Below, piece by piece: positions 11,293 through 23,227 of a DNA stretch of 64,000 nt (its first letter is position 1; each line of letters begins with the position of its first letter). Made by a program: the position numbers and the translations under genes. The notes below the pieces were generated by a model. That model saw only the letters and a program-made list of their open reading frames with translations. It did no database searches and was not told where the DNA came from. The stretch is from Fusobacterium mortiferum ATCC 9817 (GTDB lineage Bacteria > Fusobacteriota > Fusobacteriia > Fusobacteriales > Fusobacteriaceae): positions 547,632-611,631 of the forward strand of contig NZ_GL987988.1 of the NCBI RefSeq assembly GCF_000158195.2, written 5' to 3'.

Positions 11293-12012
11293 TTATTTTT
11301 CAACTTTTTTAACAATGTCTAATTGATATAATTCAGTATTCATATATAATTCATTGTAATCAAATAATTCTCCATTTTTTAGATAGGTAATATTTGATAA
11401 TTTTAAAATTGGTGTTTTAGAAGAAATTTTCAGTTTTTCAGCTATTTTTTCTGGAGCAAATACAGGGGCTATATTTTGATAAGATATAGATATTTCCATT
11501 CCATGTTTTTTAGCGTACTCATATTTTGACCCTTCCAATATTTTTACAGACATCTCAGGGTGCTTACTAACTTCCATATATGTTTTTTCAAAAAGAAGTG
11601 GATCATTATCAGCAAATCTGAGTCTTTCAATATAATAAATATTGTCAGTAGGTTTTAATCCCATTATTCTTCCAATATGCTCCCCAGCTTTTATAATTTG
11701 AAATTTTTCAACAATTGACCAAGGTTTTTTCCCCATTTCAATCATATCTTCAGTAAAACTTTTAAGTAGTGGAGAACGCTTTAAAGTATGTTCTTTAGAT
11801 ACAAAAGAACCTTTTCCTTGAATACGATAGATAATTCCCTTATAAGTAAGATTACTCAAAGCTTGTCTTACAGTAACTCTTGAGCAAGAAAATTTTTCTG
11901 CTAGTTCACTTTCCGTTGGTAAAATATCATCAGCCTTAAAAATATTAGAATGAATATTTTCAATGATATAATTTTCAATTACTTGATATTTAGATACTTT
12001 TTTTTCTTCCAT
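11293..12012 (-). CDS. GntR/HutC-family transcriptional regulator (UTRA domain)
   Basis: A 239-residue regulator with an N-terminal winged helix (LPTESELAEKFSCSRVTVRQ, about residues 25-45) and a C-terminal UTRA effector domain ending in the typical NGELFDYNELYMN segment. The longest frame extends upstream to 12060, but ATG 12012 follows AAGGAGA with correct spacing and gives the standard HutC length. It is divergent from the PTS gene with about 150 bp between them, and TACAA-type half sites fill that gap. It likely represses the PTS-nanE-DUF3604-sulfatase operon and itself until a sugar phosphate binds. Ligand inferred only. Confidence 0.93.
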   Translation of the reverse strand: MEEKKVSKYQVIENYIIENIHSNIFKADDILPTESELAEKFSCSRVTVRQALSNLTYKGIIYRIQGKGSFVSKEHTLKRSPLLKSFTEDMIEMGKKPWSIVEKFQIIKAGEHIGRIMGLKPTDNIYYIERLRFADNDPLLFEKTYMEVSKHPEMSVKILEGSKYEYAKKHGMEISISYQNIAPVFAPEKIAEKLKISSKTPILKLSNITYLKNGELFDYNELYMNTELYQLDIVKKVEK

Positions 12013-12053
12013 AATAAAAATCTCCTTAATAAAATAACAACTTATTAATAAAT

Positions 12054-12098
12054 AATACAAGTTCTACAATATATATAATACAACATAAAATTTGTATT
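12054..12098. promoter_or_regulatory. Candidate operator cluster for the GntR regulator
   Basis: AATACAA occurs at 12054-12060 and 12077-12083, TACAA at 12065-12069, and the inverted TTGTATT at 12092-12098. The pair 12077-12083/12092-12098 is a perfect 7-bp inverted repeat with an 8-bp spacer that touches the -35 box. Position and symmetry suit repression by the adjacent HutC-type protein. Confidence 0.55.
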
Positions 12099-12125
12099 GA
12101 CAAGTGAAAATTAATATATTATACT
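12097..12125 (+). promoter_or_regulatory. Promoter of the PTS/sulfatase operon
   Basis: Consensus TTGACA (12097-12102), exactly 17 bp, then TATACT (12120-12125). The start codon of the PTS gene is 40 bp downstream. Confidence 0.85.
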
Positions 12126-12164
12126 CTGCATATAGGGATATAAAATTAATTTGGAGGATTGAAA

Positions 12165-13739
12165 ATGGAAGAAAAAGTAAGTTTAAAAGACAGTTTTGTT
12201 GGAATTGGGCAAAAATTAGGTAAAGCGATAATGATGCCTATTTCTATTTTACCTGTAGCAGGGTTATTTTTAGGGATAGCGGCAGCACTATCATCTGGAG
12301 CAGTAATAAAAGCTTATTCGGTTTTAGATAACTCTTTTTTACAAGGATTATTTAAATTAATGAATGCAGTAGGAAATGGGGTATTTGGAGCTTTACCATT
12401 AATATTTGCAGTAGGAATAGCAGCAGGACTTGCTAAAGCAGAAAAAGGTTCAGCAGGATTATCTGCAGTAGTTGGATACTTTGTTCTTTTAACTGGAACA
12501 GGAGCTTTTATGAGTATACTTGGAAAAGAGGCACCAGCTGGAGCAGATATTCGTTTATATGGACAAGCTATGCAATTTGGAATAAAAACTTTAAATATGA
12601 ATGTATTTGGAGGAGCATTAGCAGGTATAGTAACAGGAGTTGTTCATAATAAATATTATAAAACAAAATTACCAGATGTATTAGCTTTCTTTGGTGGAGC
12701 TAGATTTGTTCCAATAGTAAATACAGTAGTATTTATGGGAATTTCTTTGGTAATGGTATTTATATGGCCAGCAGTAGCAAATATGATATCTTATTTTGGA
12801 ACTATTACTGAAGGTTTAGGATTAGTTGGAGCTTTTATATATGGACTTATTTTAAGAAGTTTCTATGTAATAGGATTACACCATGTATTCTATCTTCCTT
12901 TCTGGACAACAGCAGCTGGAGGAACATTAGAAATAGGTGGAAAAGTAATAGAAGGATGGCAAACAATTTTCTTAGCTCAACTTGCTGATCCAAATACAAC
13001 TCATTATTTTTCAAATATAGCTCTTTATAATAGTGGAAGATATTTCCATATGTTATTTACTATGCCAGCTGTATGTTTAGCTATGTATAGAGCTATACCA
13101 GCAGGTCCAAAAAGAAAAGCAACATTTGGATTTTTATTTTCAATAGCTTTAACAGCTTTTATAACAGGAGTTACTGAACCAATATCATTTGCTTTATTAT
13201 TTGCTTCTCCATTATTATTCGTAGCTGAAGCAATTTCATTTGCGATCTCATTTGTAATAGCAGCTATGGCAAAAGTTACAATAGGTTCAACATTCTCAGC
13301 AGGACTTGTAGAATTTCTATTATTTGGAGTATTCCAAGGAAATGCAAAAACAAATTGGATTTGGATAGTTATTTGGGGAATACCAATTTTTATAGCTAAC
13401 TATTTCTTATTTAAATTATTAATAGAAAAATTAAATGCTAAAACACCTGGTAGAGAAAGTGATGAAGAAGCAGAGAAAAAATTAAGTAATAAATATCAAG
13501 CTGGACAAGCAAAAACAATAGTAGAAGCATTAGGTGGGTTAGATAATATAGATGATTTAGATAACTGTGCTACTAGATTAAGAGTAACAGTAAAAAAATT
13601 AGATAAAGTTAATATAGAGTTATTAAAACAAACAGGAGCTCATAATGTAGTTACTAGAGGAAAAAATCTTCAAGTTATATATGGACCAACTGTGAATCTA
13701 ATAAGAACTGAAATTGATGAGTATATTTCAACTTTATAA
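12165..13739 (+). CDS. PTS transporter EIICB, glucose/N-acetylglucosamine/alpha-glucoside family
   Basis: A 524-residue sugar permease that imports and phosphorylates its substrate. The N-terminal ~400 residues are a hydrophobic EIIC domain (PVAGLFLGIAA start, GLHHVFYLPFW and the TEPISFALLFASP active-site loop). The C-terminal ~85 residues are an EIIB domain with the phosphocysteine motif NCATRLR. No EIIA domain is attached, so EIIA must come from elsewhere. TTG 12159 is in frame, but ATG 12165 fits GGAGG (12153-12157). It is the first gene of an operon with a NanE-like epimerase, DUF3604 and a sulfatase, which argues for a sulfated amino sugar or related sugar as substrate. Confidence 0.93.
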   Translation: MEEKVSLKDSFVGIGQKLGKAIMMPISILPVAGLFLGIAAALSSGAVIKAYSVLDNSFLQGLFKLMNAVGNGVFGALPLIFAVGIAAGLAKAEKGSAGLSAVVGYFVLLTGTGAFMSILGKEAPAGADIRLYGQAMQFGIKTLNMNVFGGALAGIVTGVVHNKYYKTKLPDVLAFFGGARFVPIVNTVVFMGISLVMVFIWPAVANMISYFGTITEGLGLVGAFIYGLILRSFYVIGLHHVFYLPFWTTAAGGTLEIGGKVIEGWQTIFLAQLADPNTTHYFSNIALYNSGRYFHMLFTMPAVCLAMYRAIPAGPKRKATFGFLFSIALTAFITGVTEPISFALLFASPLLFVAEAISFAISFVIAAMAKVTIGSTFSAGLVEFLLFGVFQGNAKTNWIWIVIWGIPIFIANYFLFKLLIEKLNAKTPGRESDEEAEKKLSNKYQAGQAKTIVEALGGLDNIDDLDNCATRLRVTVKKLDKVNIELLKQTGAHNVVTRGKNLQVIYGPTVNLIRTEIDEYISTL

Positions 13740-13774
13740 TTATATAAAATTTTAGTATAATGTAGGTGGGGATT

Positions 13775-14503
13775 ATGAATACTAAAAATAAAAAGATAAT
13801 AGACCAAATAAAGAATGGATTGATACTTTCTTGCCAAGTAAAAAAAACTGATCCATTATATTTACCAGGAATCATAGAAAAATTGGTAGAGTGTGGAGAA
13901 TGGGGAGATGCTTGTGGTTATAGAATAGATACTCCTGAAAACATAGTAAAGGTAAGGGGTATCACAGATAAACCAATTATAGGATTATGGAAAATAAATA
14001 TGGAAACAGAAGATGTATTTATAACTCCAACTATGAAAGAGGTAGATGCTGTAATAGAAGCTGGAGCAGATATAGTGGCAGTAGATGCCACTGATAGATT
14101 AAATAGCAATGGAGAAAAAGCCTACAATATAATTCCTAAAATAAGAGAGAAATATCCTGATATTCTTATTTTAGCAGATATTAGAAATGCTGAAGAAGCA
14201 AAATATGCATTAGAGTTAGGAGCTGATATGGTAGCACCTACTCTATATAGATTTAATGAAAATCCTAAATCAACAGACTCTCCAGTATTTGAAGAGTTAG
14301 TGAGAATAGTAGAGTATTGTAAAGATTTGGGAGTAGTTATAATGGAAGGAAAAATTTGGACTCCAGATGATGCAATAAAAAGTTTGTATTTAGGAGCACA
14401 TGCAGTTGTGGTAGGAAATGCCATAACAAGACCGCATATAACAACTTTAAAATTTACAAGTCTTATGAATAAGTTACAAAGGAAAATACCTTTAAAATAT
14501 TAA
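13775..14503 (+). CDS. nanE: NanE-like N-acylmannosamine-6-phosphate 2-epimerase
   Basis: A 242-residue TIM-barrel protein of the NanE family, which converts N-acetylmannosamine-6-phosphate to N-acetylglucosamine-6-phosphate. Seen: LILSCQVKK at the N-terminus, a lysine in GLWKIN at the position of the NanE catalytic Lys, GADIVAVDATDR, the glutamate of MEGKIWTP, and the closing VVVGNAITRP. The family usually has IKRD where this has WKIN, so the substrate may be shifted. The start ATG 13775 lies 5 nt after AGGTGG; an in-frame GTG at 13766 is inside that ribosome site. Its partner genes in the operon suggest work on a PTS-derived hexosamine phosphate. Confidence 0.82.
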   Translation: MNTKNKKIIDQIKNGLILSCQVKKTDPLYLPGIIEKLVECGEWGDACGYRIDTPENIVKVRGITDKPIIGLWKINMETEDVFITPTMKEVDAVIEAGADIVAVDATDRLNSNGEKAYNIIPKIREKYPDILILADIRNAEEAKYALELGADMVAPTLYRFNENPKSTDSPVFEELVRIVEYCKDLGVVIMEGKIWTPDDAIKSLYLGAHAVVVGNAITRPHITTLKFTSLMNKLQRKIPLKY

Positions 14504-14520
14504 AGAAGGAGAGAAGGGAA

Positions 14521-16062
14521 ATGGGTAAATACAAGATATTATGGAGTGATATGCATAGTAATCTACATCATGAAAAAATAGAGGAGCTACCAAAATGGTT
14601 TGAACAAGTAAAAGAATTATTTGATTTTTGGCCATTTGCATATTATCCATATTATATGAGAAAAGATGAAAGTGGATTAGGGGTAGAAGATAGATATACA
14701 GATGAAAAAGTAGAAAAAGATTGGGAGTATATAAGAGAATTTACTAAAAAGGTAAATGCAGAAGGATTTCCTATGTTTATGGGATATGAGTGGCAAGGAG
14801 CTGGGAAAGATGGAGACCACAATATATTTTTCTTAAATAATAATAACTTACCAGTATTTCCTATGAGATATGAAGAGTTAGTAAAAAAATATAGCGATGA
14901 AAAATGTATTGGAATACCTCATCATTTAGCTTATCAATTGGAACATAGAGGAAAAAATTGGGAAACTCACAATGATAAATTTTCTCCATTTGTAGAAATA
15001 TATTCATCACATGGTTCTAGTGAAAATGATGAGAGTCAAATAGGAATGGATAGACATGTTCATATGGGACCAAGAACAGGAGCTACTGCAGTAGAAAAAG
15101 GATGGGAAAAAGGACATAAGTTTGGAGTAATAGCTTCTGGAGATAACCACTCAGTACCAGGAGTATATGGATTTGGATATATAGCAGTGCTAGCAGAAGA
15201 AAATAGTAAAGAAAGTATATGGGAAGCTTTTGAAAAGAGAAGAGTTTATGGAGTAAGTAAAGATAAAATAAAGTTAGATTTTTCTATTGATGGTGTTGTA
15301 ATGGGAGAAGAAATTGAAGGAAAAGAAAATTCTAAATTAGTATTGGATGTAGAAGCTTCTAATTCAATAGATAGAATAGAGATAATTGAGGATAATATTA
15401 CTACTGATTATATTCCTCATACTTCAACATGGGAAAGAAAAGAATTACCAGAAAATGTAACTTTTAAGTTTAAATTAGATTTAGGTTGGGGTCCAGACAG
15501 AAGAATATTTCCAGATATAGTTTCTAAAAATTGGCATGGAAGCTTAAAAACTTCTGGTAAAATTTTATCAATAGAGAAATGTTGGAGTAATTTTGGACAA
15601 AAATTATATAATGTTACAGAAAATAGTTGTGAGTTTGATATAACATCATATAAAACAACAGCTACTGGAAAATGGATGGGACCAAGTGCTGTAACAACAG
15701 AAGGATTTATATTTGAAATTTCAGCTCCATTAGAGAGTGAAATATTACTAAGAGTTGATGGAAAGGAGTATACTTTAAAAGTAAAAGAGTTATTTGAAAA
15801 TTCAAGACTTATTCCATTATTAGATGAAGCTAAAAAATTATTAAAAGATACATTTAATTTTACAGAATACTATAGAACAGATCCATGGTGGCATAATGCT
15901 TATAAGATAAAAATTTCTAGAGCTGTTCCTAAGATTGGATATACTAGAAGAATAGAAAAAGAGATCAATACTAAAAATATAAATAATATAAGGGTAAGAG
16001 TATGGCAAAGAGATGGTGGAGTAGCATGGAGCTCACCAATATTTATAAAAAAGGAGAAATAA
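14521..16062 (+). CDS. DUF3604 family protein, PHP-like metal-dependent hydrolase
   Basis: A 513-residue DUF3604 protein. The N-terminal half has PHP-like metal sites: WSDMHSNLHHE at the start, MGYEWQG near 90, GIPHHLAY near 140 and ASGDNHSVPG near 205. The C-terminal half is beta-rich and of unknown role. There is no signal peptide, so it is cytoplasmic. It starts 18 bp after nanE with a GGAGAG site and runs almost directly into the sulfatase gene (1-bp gap), so the two are translationally linked. DUF3604 has no established reaction that I know of; the operon suggests a hydrolysis or lyase step on the sulfated sugar phosphate. Confidence 0.8.
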   Translation: MGKYKILWSDMHSNLHHEKIEELPKWFEQVKELFDFWPFAYYPYYMRKDESGLGVEDRYTDEKVEKDWEYIREFTKKVNAEGFPMFMGYEWQGAGKDGDHNIFFLNNNNLPVFPMRYEELVKKYSDEKCIGIPHHLAYQLEHRGKNWETHNDKFSPFVEIYSSHGSSENDESQIGMDRHVHMGPRTGATAVEKGWEKGHKFGVIASGDNHSVPGVYGFGYIAVLAEENSKESIWEAFEKRRVYGVSKDKIKLDFSIDGVVMGEEIEGKENSKLVLDVEASNSIDRIEIIEDNITTDYIPHTSTWERKELPENVTFKFKLDLGWGPDRRIFPDIVSKNWHGSLKTSGKILSIEKCWSNFGQKLYNVTENSCEFDITSYKTTATGKWMGPSAVTTEGFIFEISAPLESEILLRVDGKEYTLKVKELFENSRLIPLLDEAKKLLKDTFNFTEYYRTDPWWHNAYKIKISRAVPKIGYTRRIEKEINTKNINNIRVRVWQRDGGVAWSSPIFIKKEK

Positions 16063-16063
16063 A

Positions 16064-17425
16064 ATGAACGTAATATATATAAATACTCATGATAGTGGTA
16101 GAGTATTAAGTCCCTATGGATATGATATTCCTACTGATAATCTAAAAGAGTTTGCAAAAGATGCCTTAACTTTTACAAATACTTATTGTGTAGGACCAAC
16201 TTGCTCTCCAAGTAGAGCAGGGCTTCTAACTGGGACATATCCTCATCAAAATGGAATGCTAGGTTTAGCTCAAAGAGGATTTTCATTGGCAAAACCAGAA
16301 AATCATTTAGCTAATTTTTTGAAGAATAATGGATATACAACATGTTTATCAGGAATTCAACATGAATATGGATGGTATCTAGATTTAGAAGAAAATGGAC
16401 TACATGATTTAGGATATGAAAATATTTTAACAACTTCATCTAAAGAGTTTGTAAAAGAGGATTTACATATTTGGGATAGAGATAATGCTATGGAAGTTGT
16501 GAAGTGGTTAGATAATTATGATAAAGAAAAACCATTTTTTATGGCTTATGGTATGCATAGTACTCATCGTCCATATCCAATAAAGGTATTGGATAAAATA
16601 GATGAAAGATATGTGAAACCTATTTTCCCTATTACCAATAATGAAGAGAATAGACACGATCATGCTCAATTTATGACAACAGCTTATTATGCTGATGAAA
16701 ATATTAAATTAATTTTAGATGCTTTGAAAAGAAATAAACTATATGAGGATACAATTATAATTTATACAACAGATCATGGAGTAGCTCTTCCATTTAATAA
16801 GTGTAATTTGACTGATAATGGAATAGGAGTAGCTATGATAATAAGAGTACCTGGAGCTAAAAGTAATGGAGAGGTAATGGATAATCTGGTATCACATATA
16901 GATGTATTTCCTACATTGTGTGAACTATTATCATTGGAGAAGCCGGAATATTTAGAAGGAAAGTCATTTAAAAAAGTTTTTGATAATAGTAAAGAAGAGA
17001 TAAGAGATTTTATTTTTTCTGAAATAAATTTTCATACATCTTATGAACCTGTAAGATGTATAAGAACTAATCGTTATAAATACATTAAATATTATGACAA
17101 TAATTGGAATAAAATAAACCTTTCAAATATAGATGAGTCAGACCCTAAAACTTTTTTAATGAAAAATGGGTTAAAAGAGCAAATAAAATATAGAGAGGGA
17201 CTATTTGATCTTTATTATGATCCTAGTGAAAGAAATAACTTAGTTGAGGATGAGAAATCTCAATCTATTTTAGAAGAATTAAGAGAAAAATTATATCAAG
17301 AACAAGTTAGGACAAATGATCCTATATTAGCTGGAGAGCTTGAGATAAAAAAAGGATATAAAGTAAATAAAGTAGAGTGTGAAAAAGCTTCAAGCAAAGA
17401 TAAAAATGATTATATAAGTATGTAA
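16064..17425 (+). CDS. Cytoplasmic sulfatase, N-sulfoglucosamine sulfohydrolase-like
   Basis: A 453-residue type I sulfatase. The formylglycine motif is C-S-P-S-R within PTCSPSRAGLLTGTYPHQNG (Cys about 47), i.e. the cysteine type that needs an anSME or FGE maturase; neither is in the window. TTDHG near 238 supplies metal/sulfate ligands, and the C-terminal PVRCIRTNRYKYIKYYDN resembles heparan N-sulfatase (SGSH)-like enzymes. There is no signal peptide, so the substrate must be inside the cell, in keeping with PTS uptake. The ribosome site AAGGAG overlaps the stop of the DUF3604 gene. A strong terminator follows. The subfamily call is by eye. Confidence 0.88.
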   Translation: MNVIYINTHDSGRVLSPYGYDIPTDNLKEFAKDALTFTNTYCVGPTCSPSRAGLLTGTYPHQNGMLGLAQRGFSLAKPENHLANFLKNNGYTTCLSGIQHEYGWYLDLEENGLHDLGYENILTTSSKEFVKEDLHIWDRDNAMEVVKWLDNYDKEKPFFMAYGMHSTHRPYPIKVLDKIDERYVKPIFPITNNEENRHDHAQFMTTAYYADENIKLILDALKRNKLYEDTIIIYTTDHGVALPFNKCNLTDNGIGVAMIIRVPGAKSNGEVMDNLVSHIDVFPTLCELLSLEKPEYLEGKSFKKVFDNSKEEIRDFIFSEINFHTSYEPVRCIRTNRYKYIKYYDNNWNKINLSNIDESDPKTFLMKNGLKEQIKYREGLFDLYYDPSERNNLVEDEKSQSILEELREKLYQEQVRTNDPILAGELEIKKGYKVNKVECEKASSKDKNDYISM

Positions 17426-17426
17426 G

Positions 17427-17470
17427 AAAAAAAGGTAGCAAAGTGAAAAGGATTTTGCTACCTTTTTTTA
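17427..17470 (+). terminator. Terminator of the PTS-nanE-DUF3604-sulfatase operon
   Basis: GGTAGCAAA pairs with TTTGCTACC (loop about 10 nt) flanked by A and T runs; the last T run is at 17463-17469. Confidence 0.88.
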
Positions 17471-17568
17471 TACATAGAAAATTGAAGATAGAAAAAAGAT
17501 AATTTATAAAAAATAAAAATGTGATATAATATAAAAATGAAAAATAAAAATATAGAAAGGGAAAAATT

Positions 17569-18351
17569 ATGACAAATTTATTCAATCTAATCGTATCTTT
17601 ATTAGCAACAACAACAGGAGCAATTAGTGGGATAGGTGGCGGAATAATAATAAAACCAGTGTATGATGCATTTTCAGGATTACCTATCCCTACAATAAAC
17701 TTTATGTCTGGATGTACTGTTTTTTCCATGAGTATAGTTTCACTTTTAAAAAGTAGAAATAGTGGAGTAAAATTAGATAAAGTAAAGAGTACTACTTTGG
17801 CATTAGGGGCAGCAGTAGGTGGAATAATAGGGAAACAAATTTTTCAGCTAACAAAAGCAATATTTAAAAATGATAATTTTATAGGAGCTGGACAAGCAAT
17901 TATTCTTATAATTATGACTCTATATGTATTTTGGTTTATAAAAAATAAAGAGAAAATAACTATGAAGAATGTAAATAATTTAGGGATAGCTGCTTTAATT
18001 GGTTTTTCTTTAGGAATGATATCAGCTTTTTTAGGAATAGGTGGTGGACCTATCAATATAGCTATACTTGCTTATTTTTTTAATATGAATTCTAAGACTT
18101 GTTCACTAAATTCAATATATATAATTTTCTTTTCACAGACAACAAGTTTACTTACAACATTTATAACTAAAACAGTTCCAACTTATAATTCTATGGATTT
18201 AATTTTTATGATAATTGGAGGAATTGCAGGGGGATTTATAGGAAGTACAATTTCTAAAAGATTATCAAATAAGGGAGTAGATAAAATATTTTCAGTTGTT
18301 TTAATGATTATTTTGATAATATGTACATATAATTTTTTTAGATTTATCTAA
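17569..18351 (+). CDS. TauE/SafE family sulfite/sulfonate exporter-like permease
   Basis: A 260-residue membrane protein with about eight hydrophobic segments and the duplicated glycine motif of the family: SGIGGGIIIKP near the N-terminus and FLGIGGGPINIAI in the middle. TauE/SafE proteins export sulfite, sulfonates or related oxyanions. It lies between two sulfatase genes, so export of sulfate or sulfite released from sulfated sugars is a reasonable inference. The start ATG follows AAAGGG, with a TG-extended TATAAT at 17525-17530. It has its own terminator at 18390. Confidence 0.85.
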   Translation: MTNLFNLIVSLLATTTGAISGIGGGIIIKPVYDAFSGLPIPTINFMSGCTVFSMSIVSLLKSRNSGVKLDKVKSTTLALGAAVGGIIGKQIFQLTKAIFKNDNFIGAGQAIILIIMTLYVFWFIKNKEKITMKNVNNLGIAALIGFSLGMISAFLGIGGGPINIAILAYFFNMNSKTCSLNSIYIIFFSQTTSLLTTFITKTVPTYNSMDLIFMIIGGIAGGFIGSTISKRLSNKGVDKIFSVVLMIILIICTYNFFRFI

Positions 18352-18389
18352 AAAATTATAAATGAATATTATAGTTTTTTAGTATTTTG

Positions 18390-18426
18390 AAGCTGTAGAC
18401 AGTTAATTTGTTTATAGCTTTTTTGA
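18390..18426 (+). terminator. Terminator after the TauE/SafE gene
   Basis: AAGCTGTAGACA (18390-18401) pairs with TGTTTATAGCTT (18409-18420), with two G-U pairs, followed by TTTT. Confidence 0.75.
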
Positions 18427-18514
18427 TTATAATGAAATTTTGATTTAATTTATAGAGAAAATTTAATACCTATGTTATAATAGAAAAGAAAAGATGTAGA
18501 AAAGAGTGGGAAAA

Positions 18515-19699
18515 ATGAAGATAAAAGATATTAAAGAAAAAAATACCTCTAAAATACTAAATTACTTAAGAAAAAATGAAGGAATATCCAAAAAAGATTT
18601 ATCAGAAGGAATAAAACTTTCACCAAGTACAGTAACAGATTTATGTGCACCTTTATTAAAAGAGAAAATTATAGAAGAAATTGGAATGTTAGAGAGTGAT
18701 AAACCAGGAAGAAAAAAAGTTTTATTAAAAATAAATTATGATTATAAAAAAGTAATAGGAATAGATAATAAAAAAAAATAAAACAACAATAATTATAACA
18801 AATTTAAAAGGGGATATTTTAAATAAAATAATTTTAGAACTAGAAAACCAAGAACCAGAAAAATATTTGAAACAACTGCTAGAATATTTAGAAAAGTTTT
18901 TATTAGACACTAAAATAAGTTTTACTGAAATTTTAGGAATTGGAATAGGAGTTGTAGGAGCAGTAGATTCAGTAGAAGGAAAAACAATTGACTTCATAGG
19001 ATTTTGGAATGAAGAGGTTTTTCTAAAAAAAAATTTTTGAAAAAAAATTTAAATGTTCCTATTATAGTTAGTAATAATGTTAAAAATTTAGCTATTCAAC
19101 AAATGTTTATTAATAATGATTTAAATGATTTCTTTCTATTAAAATATGGAATAGGAGTAGGAGGAAGTTTAGTCATTGGAGGAGAATTATTTAAAAAAGA
19201 TTCTGCATTTAGTGGAGAAGTAGGACATTCAATAGTAATAGATGATAATGAAATTTGTCCAATTTGTAAAAGACGTGGTTGTTTCGAAAATAATTTTTCA
19301 GAAAAAGCACTAATAAAGAAAGTAAAAAAAATATTTAATAGTGAAAAAATGCCAATTTTATATAATTTAGCGAAAGGAGATGAAAAAAATATTGATTTTA
19401 AGAAAATATTAAAAGCTGGAAGTTTAGGAGAAAATGAGATATTAATTTTATTGGAAGAAGCTTCTAAATATTTAGGAATAATATTATTAAATATGTTTAC
19501 TCTTTTTTATCCTAAGAAGATAATATTATGTGGAGAAATATTTAAAAACGAAATTTTTATTAACTATCTTTTTTCTTATATTCACCAAAAGCAAATATTA
19601 GATTTTAAAAAAATAATAGTTGTAAGCGAAATTGATACGGATAAAGAATTAAAATCGAGTGTATACCCTGTGATTAAAGAAAAATTTTATAATATATAA
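18515..19699 (+). pseudogene. ROK-family regulator/kinase-like gene with two compensating poly(A) frameshifts
   Basis: Three frame segments make one ROK repressor. Residues 1-88 hold a winged helix (ISKKDLSEGIKLSPSTVTDL) and run to an A9 tract at 18770-18778, where an extra A gives a stop. The middle (about 18780-19036, KTTIIITNLKGDIL... GIGVVGAVDS) ends at a second A9 tract (19027-19035 region), where one A is missing. The last part (19037-19699) has GGSLVIGGELF and the ROK zinc motif CPICKRRGCF. A8 and A10 would restore a protein of about 395 residues. It may be a true pseudogene, a sequencing artefact, or be expressed by slippage. It sits before the second sulfatase and likely regulates it. 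ATG 18515 is preferred over GTG 18506. Confidence 0.82.
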
Positions 19700-19708
19700 A
19701 TAAATTGA

Positions 19709-19747
19709 AATAAAAGAGCTATAAAAGTATAGCTCTTTTATTTTTTT
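19709..19747 (+). terminator. Terminator after the ROK gene
   Basis: AAAAGAGCTATA and TATAGCTCTTTT form a perfect stem with a 4-nt loop, followed by a T run up to 19747. Confidence 0.88.
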
Positions 19748-19831
19748 ATAAATTTGTTCCAAGATATGTTTTATAAATAAATGTATTAAAATAATATAAA
19801 AAAAACAGAAAATATAATATTTAAAAAAATA

Positions 19832-19860
19832 TTGACACAATAATAAGTTAGAGGTATAAA
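19832..19860 (+). promoter_or_regulatory. Promoter of the sulfatase-SSS operon
   Basis: TTGACA (19832-19837), a 17-bp spacer, TATAAA (19855-19860). Confidence 0.8.
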
Positions 19861-19872
19861 TATATTACAATA

Positions 19873-19888
19873 TTTAATTCGAATTAAA
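19873..19888. promoter_or_regulatory. 16-bp perfect palindrome just after the sulfatase promoter, candidate operator
   Basis: TTTAATTCGAATTAAA is a complete palindrome about 6-21 bp after the predicted transcription start, a typical roadblock operator position. The neighbouring ROK-family gene is the obvious candidate binder, but this is inferred. Confidence 0.55.
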
Positions 19889-19914
19889 AAAATAATTATT
19901 TAGGAGGAAGTTTA

Positions 19915-21486
19915 ATGAAAAAAAGACCTAATATTCTATTGATAACAAGTGACCAACAACATTTTAATACAATAGGAGCTTTTAATAAAGAAATTATAAC
20001 TCCAAATTTAGATAGACTTGTTAGGGAAGGAACAACATTTGATAGAGCCTATTGTCCTAATCCAACTTGTACTCCTACAAGAGGGTCTATAATTACAGGA
20101 AAATATCCAAGTCAACATGGTGCTTGGACTTTAGGTGTAAAATTACCAGAAACAGAAAATACAATAGGTAATGAATTTAGAAAGGCTGGATATAAGAGTG
20201 CTTTAATAGGAAAAGCACATTTTCAACCATTGGCTTCAACTCTGGAGTTTCCATCCTTAGAAGCTTATCCATGTCTACAAGATTTGGAATTTTGGAGAAG
20301 TTATAAAGGTATATTTTATGGGTTTGATCACGTAGAACTTGCTAGAAATCACACAAATGAAGCTCATGTAGGGCAACATTACGCACTTTGGTTAGAAGAA
20401 AAAGGATGTAAAAATTGGAGAGATTATTATTTAGAGTCAACAGGAAATATGTCAGAAAAAGAATATCCTAGATTAGAAATTTTAGTTGAACAAGAAGGAA
20501 ATATTTTAAATAGTAGAAGAAATTGGGGTAAATGGGAGATACCAGAAAAATACCATTATAATACTTGGATAGCTGAAAGAACAAATAAAATGTTAGAAGA
20601 ATATAAAAATAATGACGAAAGCTTCTTTTTATGGGCAAGTTTTTTTGATCCACATCCTGAATATTTTGTTCCCGAGCCATGGGCCTCAATGTATGACCCA
20701 GAAAAATTAACTATAAATGGATTAGTTCCAGGAGAACATTTAAAGAATCCACCACATTTTCAAAAAACACAAGAAGAGAATCCTAATTTTGATGAATATA
20801 AAGAAACAGGATTTGGAATTCATGGAATGCACTCTCACCTTCAAAAAATAGAAGATATAAAGAAAGATTTAGCTTTATACTATGGAATGGTATCAATGAT
20901 GGACAAATATATAGGAGAAATTTTAAATAAATTAGATGAACTTGGTTTAGCAGAAGATACAATAGTTGTATTCACAACAGACCATGGACATTTTGTAGGA
21001 CAACATGGATTAATTAGAAAAGGTCCATTTCATTATGAAGATTTAATAAAAGTACCATTTATTGTTAGGTATCCAAATCATGTTCCTGAAAATAAAGTTT
21101 CTTCATCTATTCAGTCGTTAGTAGACTTAGCGCCAACATTTTTAAGCTTTTGTGATTTAAAAATACCTTATGATATGACAGGAATAGACCAGAAAAAAGT
21201 CTGGGAAAATCCAGATTTAGAAGTAAGAGACCATGCTATTTGTGAAAATCATCATGAACCAACAACAATTCATTTAAAAACTTATGTAGATAAAAGATAT
21301 AAGATAACTGTTTACTATAACAAAACTTATGGAGAGTTGTATGACTTACAAGAAGACCCAAATGAAATAAATAATCTTTGGGATAACGAAGATTATAAAG
21401 AGCTAAAATCAGAACTTTTACTTAAATATATATGGGCAGAATTAGGAAAAGAACCAATGTGGATGCCTAGAATAAAACAAGCTTAA
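19915..21486 (+). CDS. Sulfatase, arylsulfatase/YidJ-like
   Basis: A 523-residue type I sulfatase. N-terminal metal residues lie in PNILLITSDQQH; the formylglycine motif C-T-P-T-R is in NPTCTPTRGSIITGKYPSQ (Cys about 46). GKAHF near 98 and TTDHGHFVGQHG near 350 complete the site, and ELYDLQEDPNEINNL is the usual C-terminal segment. No signal peptide is present, so it is cytoplasmic. The cysteine-type site requires a maturase encoded elsewhere. Together with the symporter 40 bp downstream it mirrors the E. coli yidJ-yidK pair. The start ATG follows TAGGAGG. The natural substrate is unknown. Confidence 0.9.
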   Translation: MKKRPNILLITSDQQHFNTIGAFNKEIITPNLDRLVREGTTFDRAYCPNPTCTPTRGSIITGKYPSQHGAWTLGVKLPETENTIGNEFRKAGYKSALIGKAHFQPLASTLEFPSLEAYPCLQDLEFWRSYKGIFYGFDHVELARNHTNEAHVGQHYALWLEEKGCKNWRDYYLESTGNMSEKEYPRLEILVEQEGNILNSRRNWGKWEIPEKYHYNTWIAERTNKMLEEYKNNDESFFLWASFFDPHPEYFVPEPWASMYDPEKLTINGLVPGEHLKNPPHFQKTQEENPNFDEYKETGFGIHGMHSHLQKIEDIKKDLALYYGMVSMMDKYIGEILNKLDELGLAEDTIVVFTTDHGHFVGQHGLIRKGPFHYEDLIKVPFIVRYPNHVPENKVSSSIQSLVDLAPTFLSFCDLKIPYDMTGIDQKKVWENPDLEVRDHAICENHHEPTTIHLKTYVDKRYKITVYYNKTYGELYDLQEDPNEINNLWDNEDYKELKSELLLKYIWAELGKEPMWMPRIKQA

Positions 21487-21526
21487 GAATTATTTGGAAA
21501 TTTAAAATATAGACGGGGTGATAATA

Positions 21527-23227
21527 ATGAATATATTAGCAATAGGGTCATTTATATTTTTTACAGTTTTAGTTGCTGTAATTTCTTGGTATTTTACAAA
21601 AGATGAAAATCTTGAAACAAATACAGGTTATTTTTTAGGAGGAAGAAGCTTAAGTGGAGTTGTAATAGCAGGTTCATTACTTCTTACAAATTTATCAACA
21701 GAACAATTAGTTGGAATGAATGGAAATGCTTTTATGGGTGGCTTATCAGTTATAGGATATGAGGTTACTTCAGGTATAACTTTGATATTTATGGGATTAT
21801 ATTTTTTACCAAGATATTTGAAAAGTGGTTTTACAACTGTACCTCAATTTTTAGAAGAAAGATATGATAAAGGAACAAGAAATTTAGTAGCAATTCTATT
21901 TTTGATAAGTTTAGGAGTAATATCTTTACCAATTATCCTTTATTCTGGTGGAATCGCTATGAACGCTTTGTTTAATGTATCGGATATGTTAAATATTTCA
22001 GAAAATGCGGCTTTAATAGTAAGTATATGGGGAATTGGAATAGTTGGAGGAATATATGCAATATTTGGAGGATTGAAAGCTGTTGCGGTTTCAGATACTA
22101 TAAATGGAGTAGGTTTAGTAATAGGAGGATTATTAATACCTATTTTAGGATTTAAAGTTTTAGGAGATGGAAGTGTCTTAAATGGAATAGAACAACTTGT
22201 AATAAATAGTCCTGAAAAATTAAATGCAATAGGTGGAACAACAGATCCAGTTCCTTTTTCAACACTATTTACAGGAATTTTATTAATTAATACATTTTAT
22301 TGGTGTACAAACCAAGTTATAGTTCAAAGAGCTTTTGGAGCACAAAATTTAGCTGAGGGACAAAAAGGAGTAATATATGCAGGACTTTTAAAAATATTTG
22401 CTCCAATAATTTTAGCTATCCCTGGAGTTATAGCTTATCAACTATATGGATCAGAAATAACAAAAGGAGATTTTGCATATCCAATATTAGTAAATAGAGT
22501 TCTACCTACTTATTTAGTTGGATTCTTTGGAGCTGTTTTATTCGGTGCTATTTTAAGTTCTTTTAACTCATCATTAAACTCAGCTTCAACAATTTTCTGC
22601 TTAGATATCTTTAAACCGTTATTTGCTCCAAATATTGATGATAAAAAACTAGTTAAAGTTGGAAAAATATTTGGAACAGTATTGGGATTAATTTCAATAT
22701 TTATGGCTCCATATATTGCAAATGCTCCAAATGGTTTATTTGATTTTATGAAAAAATTTATGGGATTTTTCAATGTTCCAACTTTAGTAATTGTATTTGT
22801 TGGTTTTTTCTCTAAAAAAATACCACCTATTGCAGCTAAAATATCAATATTTGTTTTCATGTTTTTGTATGGGGTATTTCAATTTGTATATAAAGTTAAT
22901 ATAAGTTTTTTACACTTATTAGGCGGATTATTTATATTATGTATTTGTATAATGGTTATAATAGGATATATAGCTCCAATGAAAGTTCCATATACTCAAC
23001 AAGAGAAAGAAGAAGTTACATTAATAGAGTGGAAATATGCTAAACCAGTATGTGGATTAATTGTAACAACAACAGTTTATGTGTATGTTCTTCTTTCTCC
23101 AATAGGAGTAGTAGGACTAAAAGAAAATATAGGAAATAAATTTATATTAGTAACATTAGTATACTTAATTATATCAGGAATTATATTTTTCTTTTTAAAT
23201 AAAACTAATAAAAAATTTAATTTATAA
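21527..23227 (+). CDS. Sodium:solute symporter (SSS/SLC5), YidK-like
   Basis: A 566-residue, strongly hydrophobic symporter with about 14 membrane segments. GYFLGGRSLSG, LLLTNLSTEQLVGMNG and GFFGAVLFGAILSSFNSSLNSAST match E. coli YidK closely by eye. It would import a sugar or sulfated sugar with Na+. A GTG at 21518 is in frame but lies inside the ribosome site GGGGTGAT, so ATG 21527 is chosen. It forms an operon with the upstream sulfatase. A bidirectional terminator separates it from gltS on the other strand. Confidence 0.9.
   Translation: MNILAIGSFIFFTVLVAVISWYFTKDENLETNTGYFLGGRSLSGVVIAGSLLLTNLSTEQLVGMNGNAFMGGLSVIGYEVTSGITLIFMGLYFLPRYLKSGFTTVPQFLEERYDKGTRNLVAILFLISLGVISLPIILYSGGIAMNALFNVSDMLNISENAALIVSIWGIGIVGGIYAIFGGLKAVAVSDTINGVGLVIGGLLIPILGFKVLGDGSVLNGIEQLVINSPEKLNAIGGTTDPVPFSTLFTGILLINTFYWCTNQVIVQRAFGAQNLAEGQKGVIYAGLLKIFAPIILAIPGVIAYQLYGSEITKGDFAYPILVNRVLPTYLVGFFGAVLFGAILSSFNSSLNSASTIFCLDIFKPLFAPNIDDKKLVKVGKIFGTVLGLISIFMAPYIANAPNGLFDFMKKFMGFFNVPTLVIVFVGFFSKKIPPIAAKISIFVFMFLYGVFQFVYKVNISFLHLLGGLFILCICIMVIIGYIAPMKVPYTQQEKEEVTLIEWKYAKPVCGLIVTTTVYVYVLLSPIGVVGLKENIGNKFILVTLVYLIISGIIFFFLNKTNKKFNL

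Follow-up and report, generated by a model that had tools for sequence, protein, structure and literature searches.

The DNA analysed here, referred to as the window, is a stretch of 64,000 nucleotides from Fusobacterium mortiferum ATCC 9817 (contig NZ_GL987988.1). It holds a four-gene operon, module A, which encodes in order a phosphotransferase system (PTS) EIICB, a NanE-like epimerase, a protein labelled DUF3604 and an S1_8-like sulfatase, preceded by a GntR regulator gene on the minus strand. On balance, sequence comparison favours the view that module A scavenges sulfated glucosamine, most likely N-sulfoglucosamine (GlcNS), and that the DUF3604 protein strips the N-sulfate in the cytoplasm, probably from GlcNS-6-phosphate. 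The computation supports the operon structure, an operator-like motif, the family and predicted fold of the DUF3604 protein, its association with neighbouring genes, and its homology to the protein occupying the BT4655 slot of a Bacteroides heparin locus. Throughout, G denotes a compared genome, L a compared locus and A an alignment.

The DUF3604 protein and its Bacteroides relative

A protein search of plasmid records with the window DUF3604 protein matched 12 records. The homologue from Bacteroides finegoldii aligns at 28.1% identity over 99% (E 1e-39), and profile-profile comparison (hhalign) of the window group with the Bacteroides homologue group gave a probability of 100 and an E value of 2.8e-66 over 466 columns. 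This homologue (X) lies in the gene order PL12-SGBP-SusC-SusD-GH88/DUF4995-PL12-sulfatase-X-ROK-MFS-DUF4962, and the sulfatase beside it matches the N-acetylglucosamine (GlcNAc)-6-sulfatase structure 5g2v at 1163.8 bits. The same functions run along Bacteroides thetaiotaomicron BT4662 down to BT4652, with BT4655 in the slot of X (PMC9067506). Deletion of BT4655 led to poorer growth on heparin and left GlcNS in the medium, and the protein was assigned to a novel sulfatase family missing from SulfAtlas (PMC10154612), with no formylglycine dependence predicted for it (PMC11980591); reviews, where they touch on it, describe a genetically supported glucosamine N-sulfatase.

The window protein and the B. 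finegoldii slot protein belong to the same family, with full-length homology, common putative metal residues and linkage to sulfatase and amino-sugar genes. The B. finegoldii protein is extended at its N-terminus (annotation 'Tat pathway signal sequence') and stands beside heparin lyases and GH88. The window protein, by contrast, shows no leader by reading; it has a PTS neighbour, belongs to another deep clade and carries Asn for His at position 14. The window protein is therefore described as homologous to the BT4655-slot protein and probably working like it, orthology not being claimed because the clades are separate. The literature search returned nothing tying BT4655 or DUF3604 to the PHP fold, and for the name DUF3604 an unrelated match only; it did not cover the 2017 PNAS paper on B. 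thetaiotaomicron glycosaminoglycan sulfation, which may already name the family.

The profile PF12228 (DUF3604) matches the window protein at 30.5 bits (cut-off 20.4), yet covers just 36 of its 591 positions; 35 of the 36 members of alignment A1 match the same profile. The sole NCBIfam model matched, NF038032 (CehA/McbA metallohydrolase), gave 31.2 bits for the window protein and 57.3 for the Bacteroides homologue, both below the cut-off of 80; CehA/McbA enzymes hydrolyse carbamate pesticides (PMC8292978). Sequence searches of the PDB produced weak unrelated matches only (adhesin, armadillo-repeat and other chains). An AlphaFold2 model built from 36 sequences (predicted local distance difference test 92.6) adopts a PHP fold in its first 250 residues, matching 2anu (Z 17.0, root-mean-square deviation 3.4, 208 aligned), 3e38 (Z 16.6, 219 aligned) and PsfC 7rty (Z 15.1, 210 aligned), and its C-terminal part gave Ig-like matches alone (Z at most 8.6). 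Among 24 checked positions, hand-picked mostly from columns invariant in A1, 13 are invariant in all 46 sequences, likely metal ligands included; D10, H12, D35, E90, D99, H134, H135, R143, W147, E159, H164 and D208 are present in 46/46 and H210 in 44/46. Judged by its predicted fold and invariant residues, the DUF3604 protein is probably a metal hydrolase. Alignment A1 left out five of 40 genome loci that were frameshifted or partial (L042, L069, L072, L073 and L074), and the members of alignments A4 (n = 10) and A5 (n = 6) were chosen by hand. A scan of viral contigs gave 26 pattern matches, none coding for a DUF3604 relative.

Distribution and gene neighbourhood

Of 98 Fusobacteriota genomes, 12 (that of F. 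mortiferum counted) carry a DUF3604 orthologue of at least 50% identity, and five more have remote matches. A further 40 loci came from species genomes, all but two of them Bacillota (Erysipelotrichaceae, Lachnospiraceae, Clostridium, Gemmiger, Halolactibacillus, Maledivibacter and others) and one of the two exceptions being Cetobacterium. The tree places the window protein near Erysipelotrichaceae, with L035 nearest (70%) and some of those forks open. This placement, together with the operator-like motif common to both phyla, suggests transfer of the module A operon between Fusobacteriota and Bacillota.

The gene-neighbour comparison of DUF3604 with sulfatases that the first-pass annotation had proposed as a check showed that 37 of 50 loci have a sulfatase within 10 kb, 35 of them one of the type of the first window sulfatase, and that 44 have a detected transporter within the same span. 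Since a random ±10 kb stretch would hold a PF00884 gene about 4% of the time (an estimate from this genome only), the sulfatase beside DUF3604 is more than chance, and DUF3604 is the core of module A. The 44 transporters comprise glucose-family PTS (12), mannose-family PTS (19, plus 2 with a second label), sucrose-like PTS (3) and TctABC (8). The counts are lower bounds, because several loci end at contig ends; they omit L055 (a duplicate of L027 with the same gene order) and L074 (a fragment without a DUF3604 match). L067, labelled first-sulfatase at a mere 22% identity, is left aside, hence 35 rather than 36; the mannose-PTS IIA and IIB of L053 are not among the 44, and the second transporter labels in L038 and L054 are weak matches (26-32% identity).

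Further neighbours among the 50 loci are GntR (26), NanE (9), TauE (5, the window locus counted) and anSME (4). The Halolactibacillus loci add FGE, anSME, NagB, EIIA and GH4; L068 adds NagB (236.0 bits, cut-off 236.9), a partial NagA-like gene, NanE and SIS genes, and NagB exceeds its cut-off in L065 (288.5 vs 236.9). An SIS_2 protein adjoins DUF3604 at L035:12905-14311 and L068:5178-6626; it is PRK02947-like (tested in L035) and a candidate amino-sugar phosphate isomerase or deaminase. A third, choline-sulfatase-like type of sulfatase (CVPSR/CVPAR; alignment A3, e.g. L043:8611-10005) lies near DUF3604 in 15 of the 50 loci. In G027 the DUF3604 gene is in two pieces (C1:2377632-2379163), and no anSME there exceeds its cut-off (best 61.3 bits). 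A role for DUF3604 as a stand-in for a missing deacetylase was ruled out in Fusobacteriota, because NagA is over cut-off in all 12 carriers.

The motif of the putative operator, allowing at most one mismatch in the 500-base stretch upstream of GntR, is found in 23 of the 26 loci with GntR, against a background of 0.038 per 500 bases. The pattern TTGTATTGACAA occurs once genome-wide, at the operator, and its reversed control six times. The predicted promoter has a -35 box, TTGACA, at 12097-12102, overlapped by the putative operator, and a -10 box, TATACT, ending at 12125; it agrees in 11 of 12 positions, from a scan that gave fewer promoter-like sites than shuffles.

Some DUF3604 loci are free of sulfatases. 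G036, a draft genome (about 90 contigs, 99% complete), encodes EIICB and DUF3604 but no anSME above the cut-off, the best match reaching 31.1 bits; its single PF00884 gene over cut-off is without the C/S-x-P/A-x-R motif. A single S-type sulfatase, read as having a leader, occurs in G032, and an anSME gene adjoins it. Across the four sulfatase-free loci, the EIICB beside DUF3604 passes the GlcNAc-specific PTS cut-off of 553.2 bits in L031 (G032; 561.2) and L027 (G014; 561.5), falls just short in L033 (533.2), and scores 470.4 in L032 (G036), where the contig end cuts it off and where it is 92% identical to the L031 EIICB over 403 residues. Because no formylglycine sulfatase was found in G036 beside its EIICB and DUF3604, and the L031 and L027 EIICBs are of GlcNAc type, DUF3604 is probably able to act alone on a GlcNAc-like PTS product.

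More distant homologues fit sulfated sugars in part. The proteobacterial ones stand with ABC transporters and a sulfatase in three of four annotated loci, namely those of Roseateles, Salipiger and Marinovum, where the transporter is an ABC sugar transporter; in Salipiger an SIS protein and a kinase accompany them. A sulfatase and FGE lie near the homologue in Halomicrobium, a Cetobacterium somerae record combines RpiR, nagE and the homologue, and in the Sinorhizobium and Subdoligranulum records, which carry no gene table, tblastn found sulfatase-like stretches 2 to 4 kb from it. In one set of 13 records, 12 were inspected and H23 (Halomontanus) was left out. On a Palleronia plasmid (L117:6579-12976) the homologue is flanked by an ABC transporter and by a gene of the glutamine-synthetase family, an order that, speculatively, would suit a sulfamate whose amine is then glutamylated.

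The first-pass annotation had proposed a cytoplasmic pathway for a sulfated hexosamine, with DUF3604 as a new step. Its core is well upheld by the sulfatase and transporter counts and by the heparin-locus homologue; the ROK gene, second sulfatase and YidK-like symporter that it had included form an independent set. It had also taken the SGSH-like sulfatase and NanE as pointing to an N- or O-sulfated hexosamine. The heparin-locus homologue does indicate N-sulfated glucosamine, with DUF3604 favoured as the N-sulfatase and the S1_8-like enzyme assigned to another sulfate. As a substrate clue NanE fared poorly: because it lies near DUF3604 in only 9 of the 50 loci, it is better regarded as accessory and as weak evidence.

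Layout of the window and its sulfatases

Profile matches confirmed the genes that the first-pass annotation had placed here, from EIICB to the YidK-like symporter (Table 1). Its description of one island under GntR and ROK control did not hold. What it called an island consists of two neighbouring modules, because module B (ROK gene, second sulfatase and YidK-like symporter) sits 0.78 to 2.4 Mb from module A, by record coordinates, in four relatives (G025-G028). A single regulon for both is weakened by this separate placement and by the terminator that ends module A, and the ROK gene is broken. Within module A the intergenic gaps are 26, 17 and 1 bases, and the TauE gene stands alone as a separate unit after the terminator. 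The terminator hairpin (-21.8 kcal/mol, z -8.05) was matched by none of 200 shuffles and is absent from the list of a simple scan. Rfam and tRNA scans of the whole window gave no matches.

Table 1. Features of modules A and B and their surroundings, in window positions.
Feature	Position	Strand	Basis
GntR/UTRA regulator	11293..12060	-	PF07702 102.2 bits, PF00392 63 bits; divergent from operon
Putative GntR operator around TGTATTGACA (12093-12102)	12087..12108	+	motif conservation upstream of GntR
PTS EIICB, glucose superfamily	12159..13739	+	PF02378 199.3 bits, PF00367 49.5 bits; alternative ATG 12165
NanE-like sugar-phosphate 2-epimerase, diverged paralogue	13766..14503	+	NF002231 208.8 bits, cut-off 189
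DUF3604-labelled PHP-fold hydrolase, proposed cytoplasmic N-sulfoglucosamine(-6-phosphate) N-sulfatase	14521..16062	+	predicted fold, invariant residues, B. finegoldii homologue
First sulfatase, S1_8-like, Cys-type (CSPSR)	16064..17425	+	PF00884 145.5 bits
Intrinsic terminator after first sulfatase	17427..17469	+	hairpin then T; closes module A operon
TauE/SafE permease, candidate sulfate/sulfite exporter	17569..18351	+	PF01925 106.3 bits, cut-off 32.6
ROK-family repressor gene, two frameshifts	18506..19699	+	three-frame reading
Second sulfatase, Cys-type (CTPTR), module B	19915..21486	+	PF00884 163.4 bits
YidK-like sodium:solute symporter, module B	21518..23227	+	NF007790 747.8 bits, cut-off 401

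The host genome (2.67 Mb) has five PF00884 genes. The two in the window had been called Cys-type sulfatases without signal peptides, which agrees with their motifs and with their N-termini, MNVIYINTHDSGR in the first and MKKRPNILLITSDQ in the second, neither showing a signal peptide by reading (without a predictor). Both carry the marks of S1 formylglycine sulfatases, namely PF00884 and the C-x-P-x-R motif, and the genome encodes a maturase, an anSME lying elsewhere (412.2 bits, cut-off 349.45); no FGE was found in the genome, and this combination therefore suits Cys-type sulfatases. The profile of the first-sulfatase family (A2) matches best S1_8A 9bb9 (208.5 bits), then SGSH 4mhx (158.5 bits), in a comparison that held no SulfAtlas subfamily models; it aligns nearly end to end with S1_8A, and from position 21 with human SGSH. 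Human SGSH is a lysosomal formylglycine enzyme. The S1_8 N-sulfatase of Pedobacter heparinus, which acts on GlcNS, is likewise a formylglycine enzyme and periplasmic (PMC10154612), whereas the window DUF3604 protein has another, predicted, fold. The NanE-like gene has a stronger counterpart elsewhere in the genome (PF04131 232.7 vs 140.7 bits; NF002231 306.7), 37% identical to the window copy.

The genes of module B lie together in all four relatives, where the second sulfatase has orthologues of 84-86% with the symporter alongside each time. Their ROK gene is intact (396 aa) in G025, G026 and G028 and split in G027. In the window it has no single open frame, with frame changes near the nine-A runs 18770-18778 and 19025-19033, which may reflect a genuine pseudogene, slippage or an error in the assembly. 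Module B resembles the yidJ-yidK pair of Escherichia coli (sulfatase 27% to YidJ, symporter 49% to YidK); it differs in having a ROK regulator where E. coli has yidL alongside. Two more pairs of a sulfatase and a YidK-like symporter (L098:7586-11897 and L099:5118-8260) bring the pairs in this genome to three. At C2:243-251 kb (L128:2907-10153) it has a sulfatase, GH88, an MFS carrier, two LUD-domain genes and a heparinase II/III gene, possibly a glycosaminoglycan locus; L099, about 14 kb away, includes galactosamine/N-acetylgalactosamine-type PTS genes (IIB 213.0 vs 180 bits).

Proposed route, alternatives and implications

In the route envisaged, GlcNS would be released from heparin or heparan sulfate, either by other bacteria or by lyases of the cell itself, and imported by EIICB, which would phosphorylate it to GlcNS-6-phosphate. 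The DUF3604 protein, by homology to the BT4655-slot protein, would cleave the N-S bond to release sulfate and glucosamine-6-phosphate, the latter then entering the Nag route. Should DUF3604 be the enzyme that removes N-sulfate, a different position would be expected for the S1_8-like sulfatase, because the two co-occur in 35 of the 50 loci; matured by anSME, this sulfatase might take a second sulfate off multiply sulfated forms, with 3-O as a first, weak guess because a 6-O-sulfate would block 6-phosphorylation by the PTS. The NanE-like epimerase might conceivably salvage a C2-epimeric amino-sugar phosphate, GntR would repress the operon through the putative, conserved site overlapping the -35 box, and TauE may export the sulfate. 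F. mortiferum may also make part of its own substrate, because heparinase II/III, GH88, a sulfatase and an MFS carrier share one stretch (C2:243-251 kb). More tentatively, as a proposal that could well fail, DUF3604/PHP proteins would form a new sulfatase class of metal-dependent, formylglycine-free sulfamidases, whose Fusobacteriota/Bacillota clade would act in the cytoplasm of many gut bacteria on PTS-made GlcNS-6-phosphate, no maturase being needed.

Several observations weigh against the assignment of DUF3604 as a GlcNS-6-phosphate N-sulfatase. BT4655 is equated with the B. finegoldii gene by synteny rather than by sequence, and the window and BT4655-slot proteins fall in separate deep clades (split 100/99, with a midpoint root and long-branch warnings). 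Position 14, a likely metal ligand, is Asn in 37 and His in 9 of the 46 sequences, with Asn in the window (PTS/Tct) clade and His in the BT4655-slot clade; because of this exchange and the deep split, the two proteins may differ in reaction. The window EIICB stays below every substrate-specific NCBIfam cut-off, including those for GlcNAc (TIGR01998, 356.4 vs 553.2) and glucose (436.1 vs 591.8). TctABC, whose transport would yield no 6-phosphate, occurs alone in eight loci and with a PTS in one; six of the 50 loci lack a detected transporter and 13 a sulfatase, some being ended by contig ends. A heparinase II/III match is present in three of the 12 Fusobacteriota carriers, one a short piece with a stop; the nine carriers with no such match are more likely scavengers. 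The stretches around the homologue hold no annotated sulfatase in Palleronia, two Haloarcula records or Natrinema, the last with TauE and a sulfate exporter nearby. Finally, S1_8 includes a known GlcNS N-sulfatase (PMC10154612), and the presence of the S1_8-like type with DUF3604 in so many loci would be odd if both removed N-sulfate.

That last point opens on an alternative in which the S1_8-like sulfatase is the operon's N-sulfatase and DUF3604 takes a different group off the imported amino sugar, be it acyl, carbamoyl, an O-sulfate or a phosphoester. Among PHP enzymes, esterases are the usual kind. The nearest NCBIfam model of DUF3604, although below its cut-off, is that of the carbamate hydrolases, and the near end-to-end alignment of the sulfatase family with S1_8A, which has been called monosaccharide-specific (PMC12549532), and with SGSH from position 21, points the same way, as does the S1_8 membership of the P. 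heparinus enzyme. This membership does not settle N-specificity, however, because S1_8 also has 2-O-sulfatases (PMC12549532); the occurrence of DUF3604 in G036, where no formylglycine sulfatase was found, and of its homologue in the BT4655 slot likewise make this alternative unlikely. It is more doubtful still that DUF3604 acts on another anionic amino-sugar derivative, such as an O-sulfate or a sulfamate other than GlcNS, the Bacteroides likeness then marking only a broad class of sulfo-sugar hydrolases. The deep clade split, the change from His14 to Asn, and haloarchaeal and Palleronia contexts unlike heparan sulfate would agree with this, whereas the GlcNAc-type PTS, NagB and NanE neighbours of some loci indicate glucosamine.

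Least probable, and in our view very improbable, is a glycosidase-like or uronyl hydrolase activity by which DUF3604 would cleave an imported, possibly sulfated, glycosaminoglycan disaccharide in place of GH88. Such a role would accord with a sulfatase count that varies between loci while DUF3604 is constant, and with the finding of no GH88 in seven of the 12 Fusobacteriota carriers. It also has a precedent in Streptococcus pneumoniae, which, much as proposed for module A, imports a glycosaminoglycan fragment, the hyaluronan disaccharide, by a PTS and processes it in the cytoplasm; that system uses an unsaturated glucuronyl hydrolase, and its description there mentions no sulfatase (PMC9067506). 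A substitution for GH88 is nevertheless weakened by the GH88 match that the B. finegoldii locus has besides the DUF3604 homologue and by GH88 elsewhere in five of the 12 carriers, F. mortiferum counted. In addition, a GH4 gene adjoins DUF3604 in the Halolactibacillus loci, and 30 Pfam-scanned neighbour representatives include no kdg or kdu genes.

Removal of N-sulfate by DUF3604 thus remains the preferred reading. In Bacteroides, de-N-sulfation of heparin-derived glucosamine has been assigned genetically to BT4655, in a family called uncharacterised (PMC10154612). A link from the BT4655 slot to both the PHP/DUF3604 fold and the compact PTS operons of Fusobacteriota and Bacillota offers a fold, candidate catalytic residues and a testable substrate and, if the assignment is true, a soluble cytoplasmic enzyme independent of anSME. 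It would then add a non-formylglycine class to the classification of sulfatases, give a function to a family now annotated as of 'unknown function', and account for what becomes of free GlcNS in the gut, where it would be used by many bacteria through cross-feeding.

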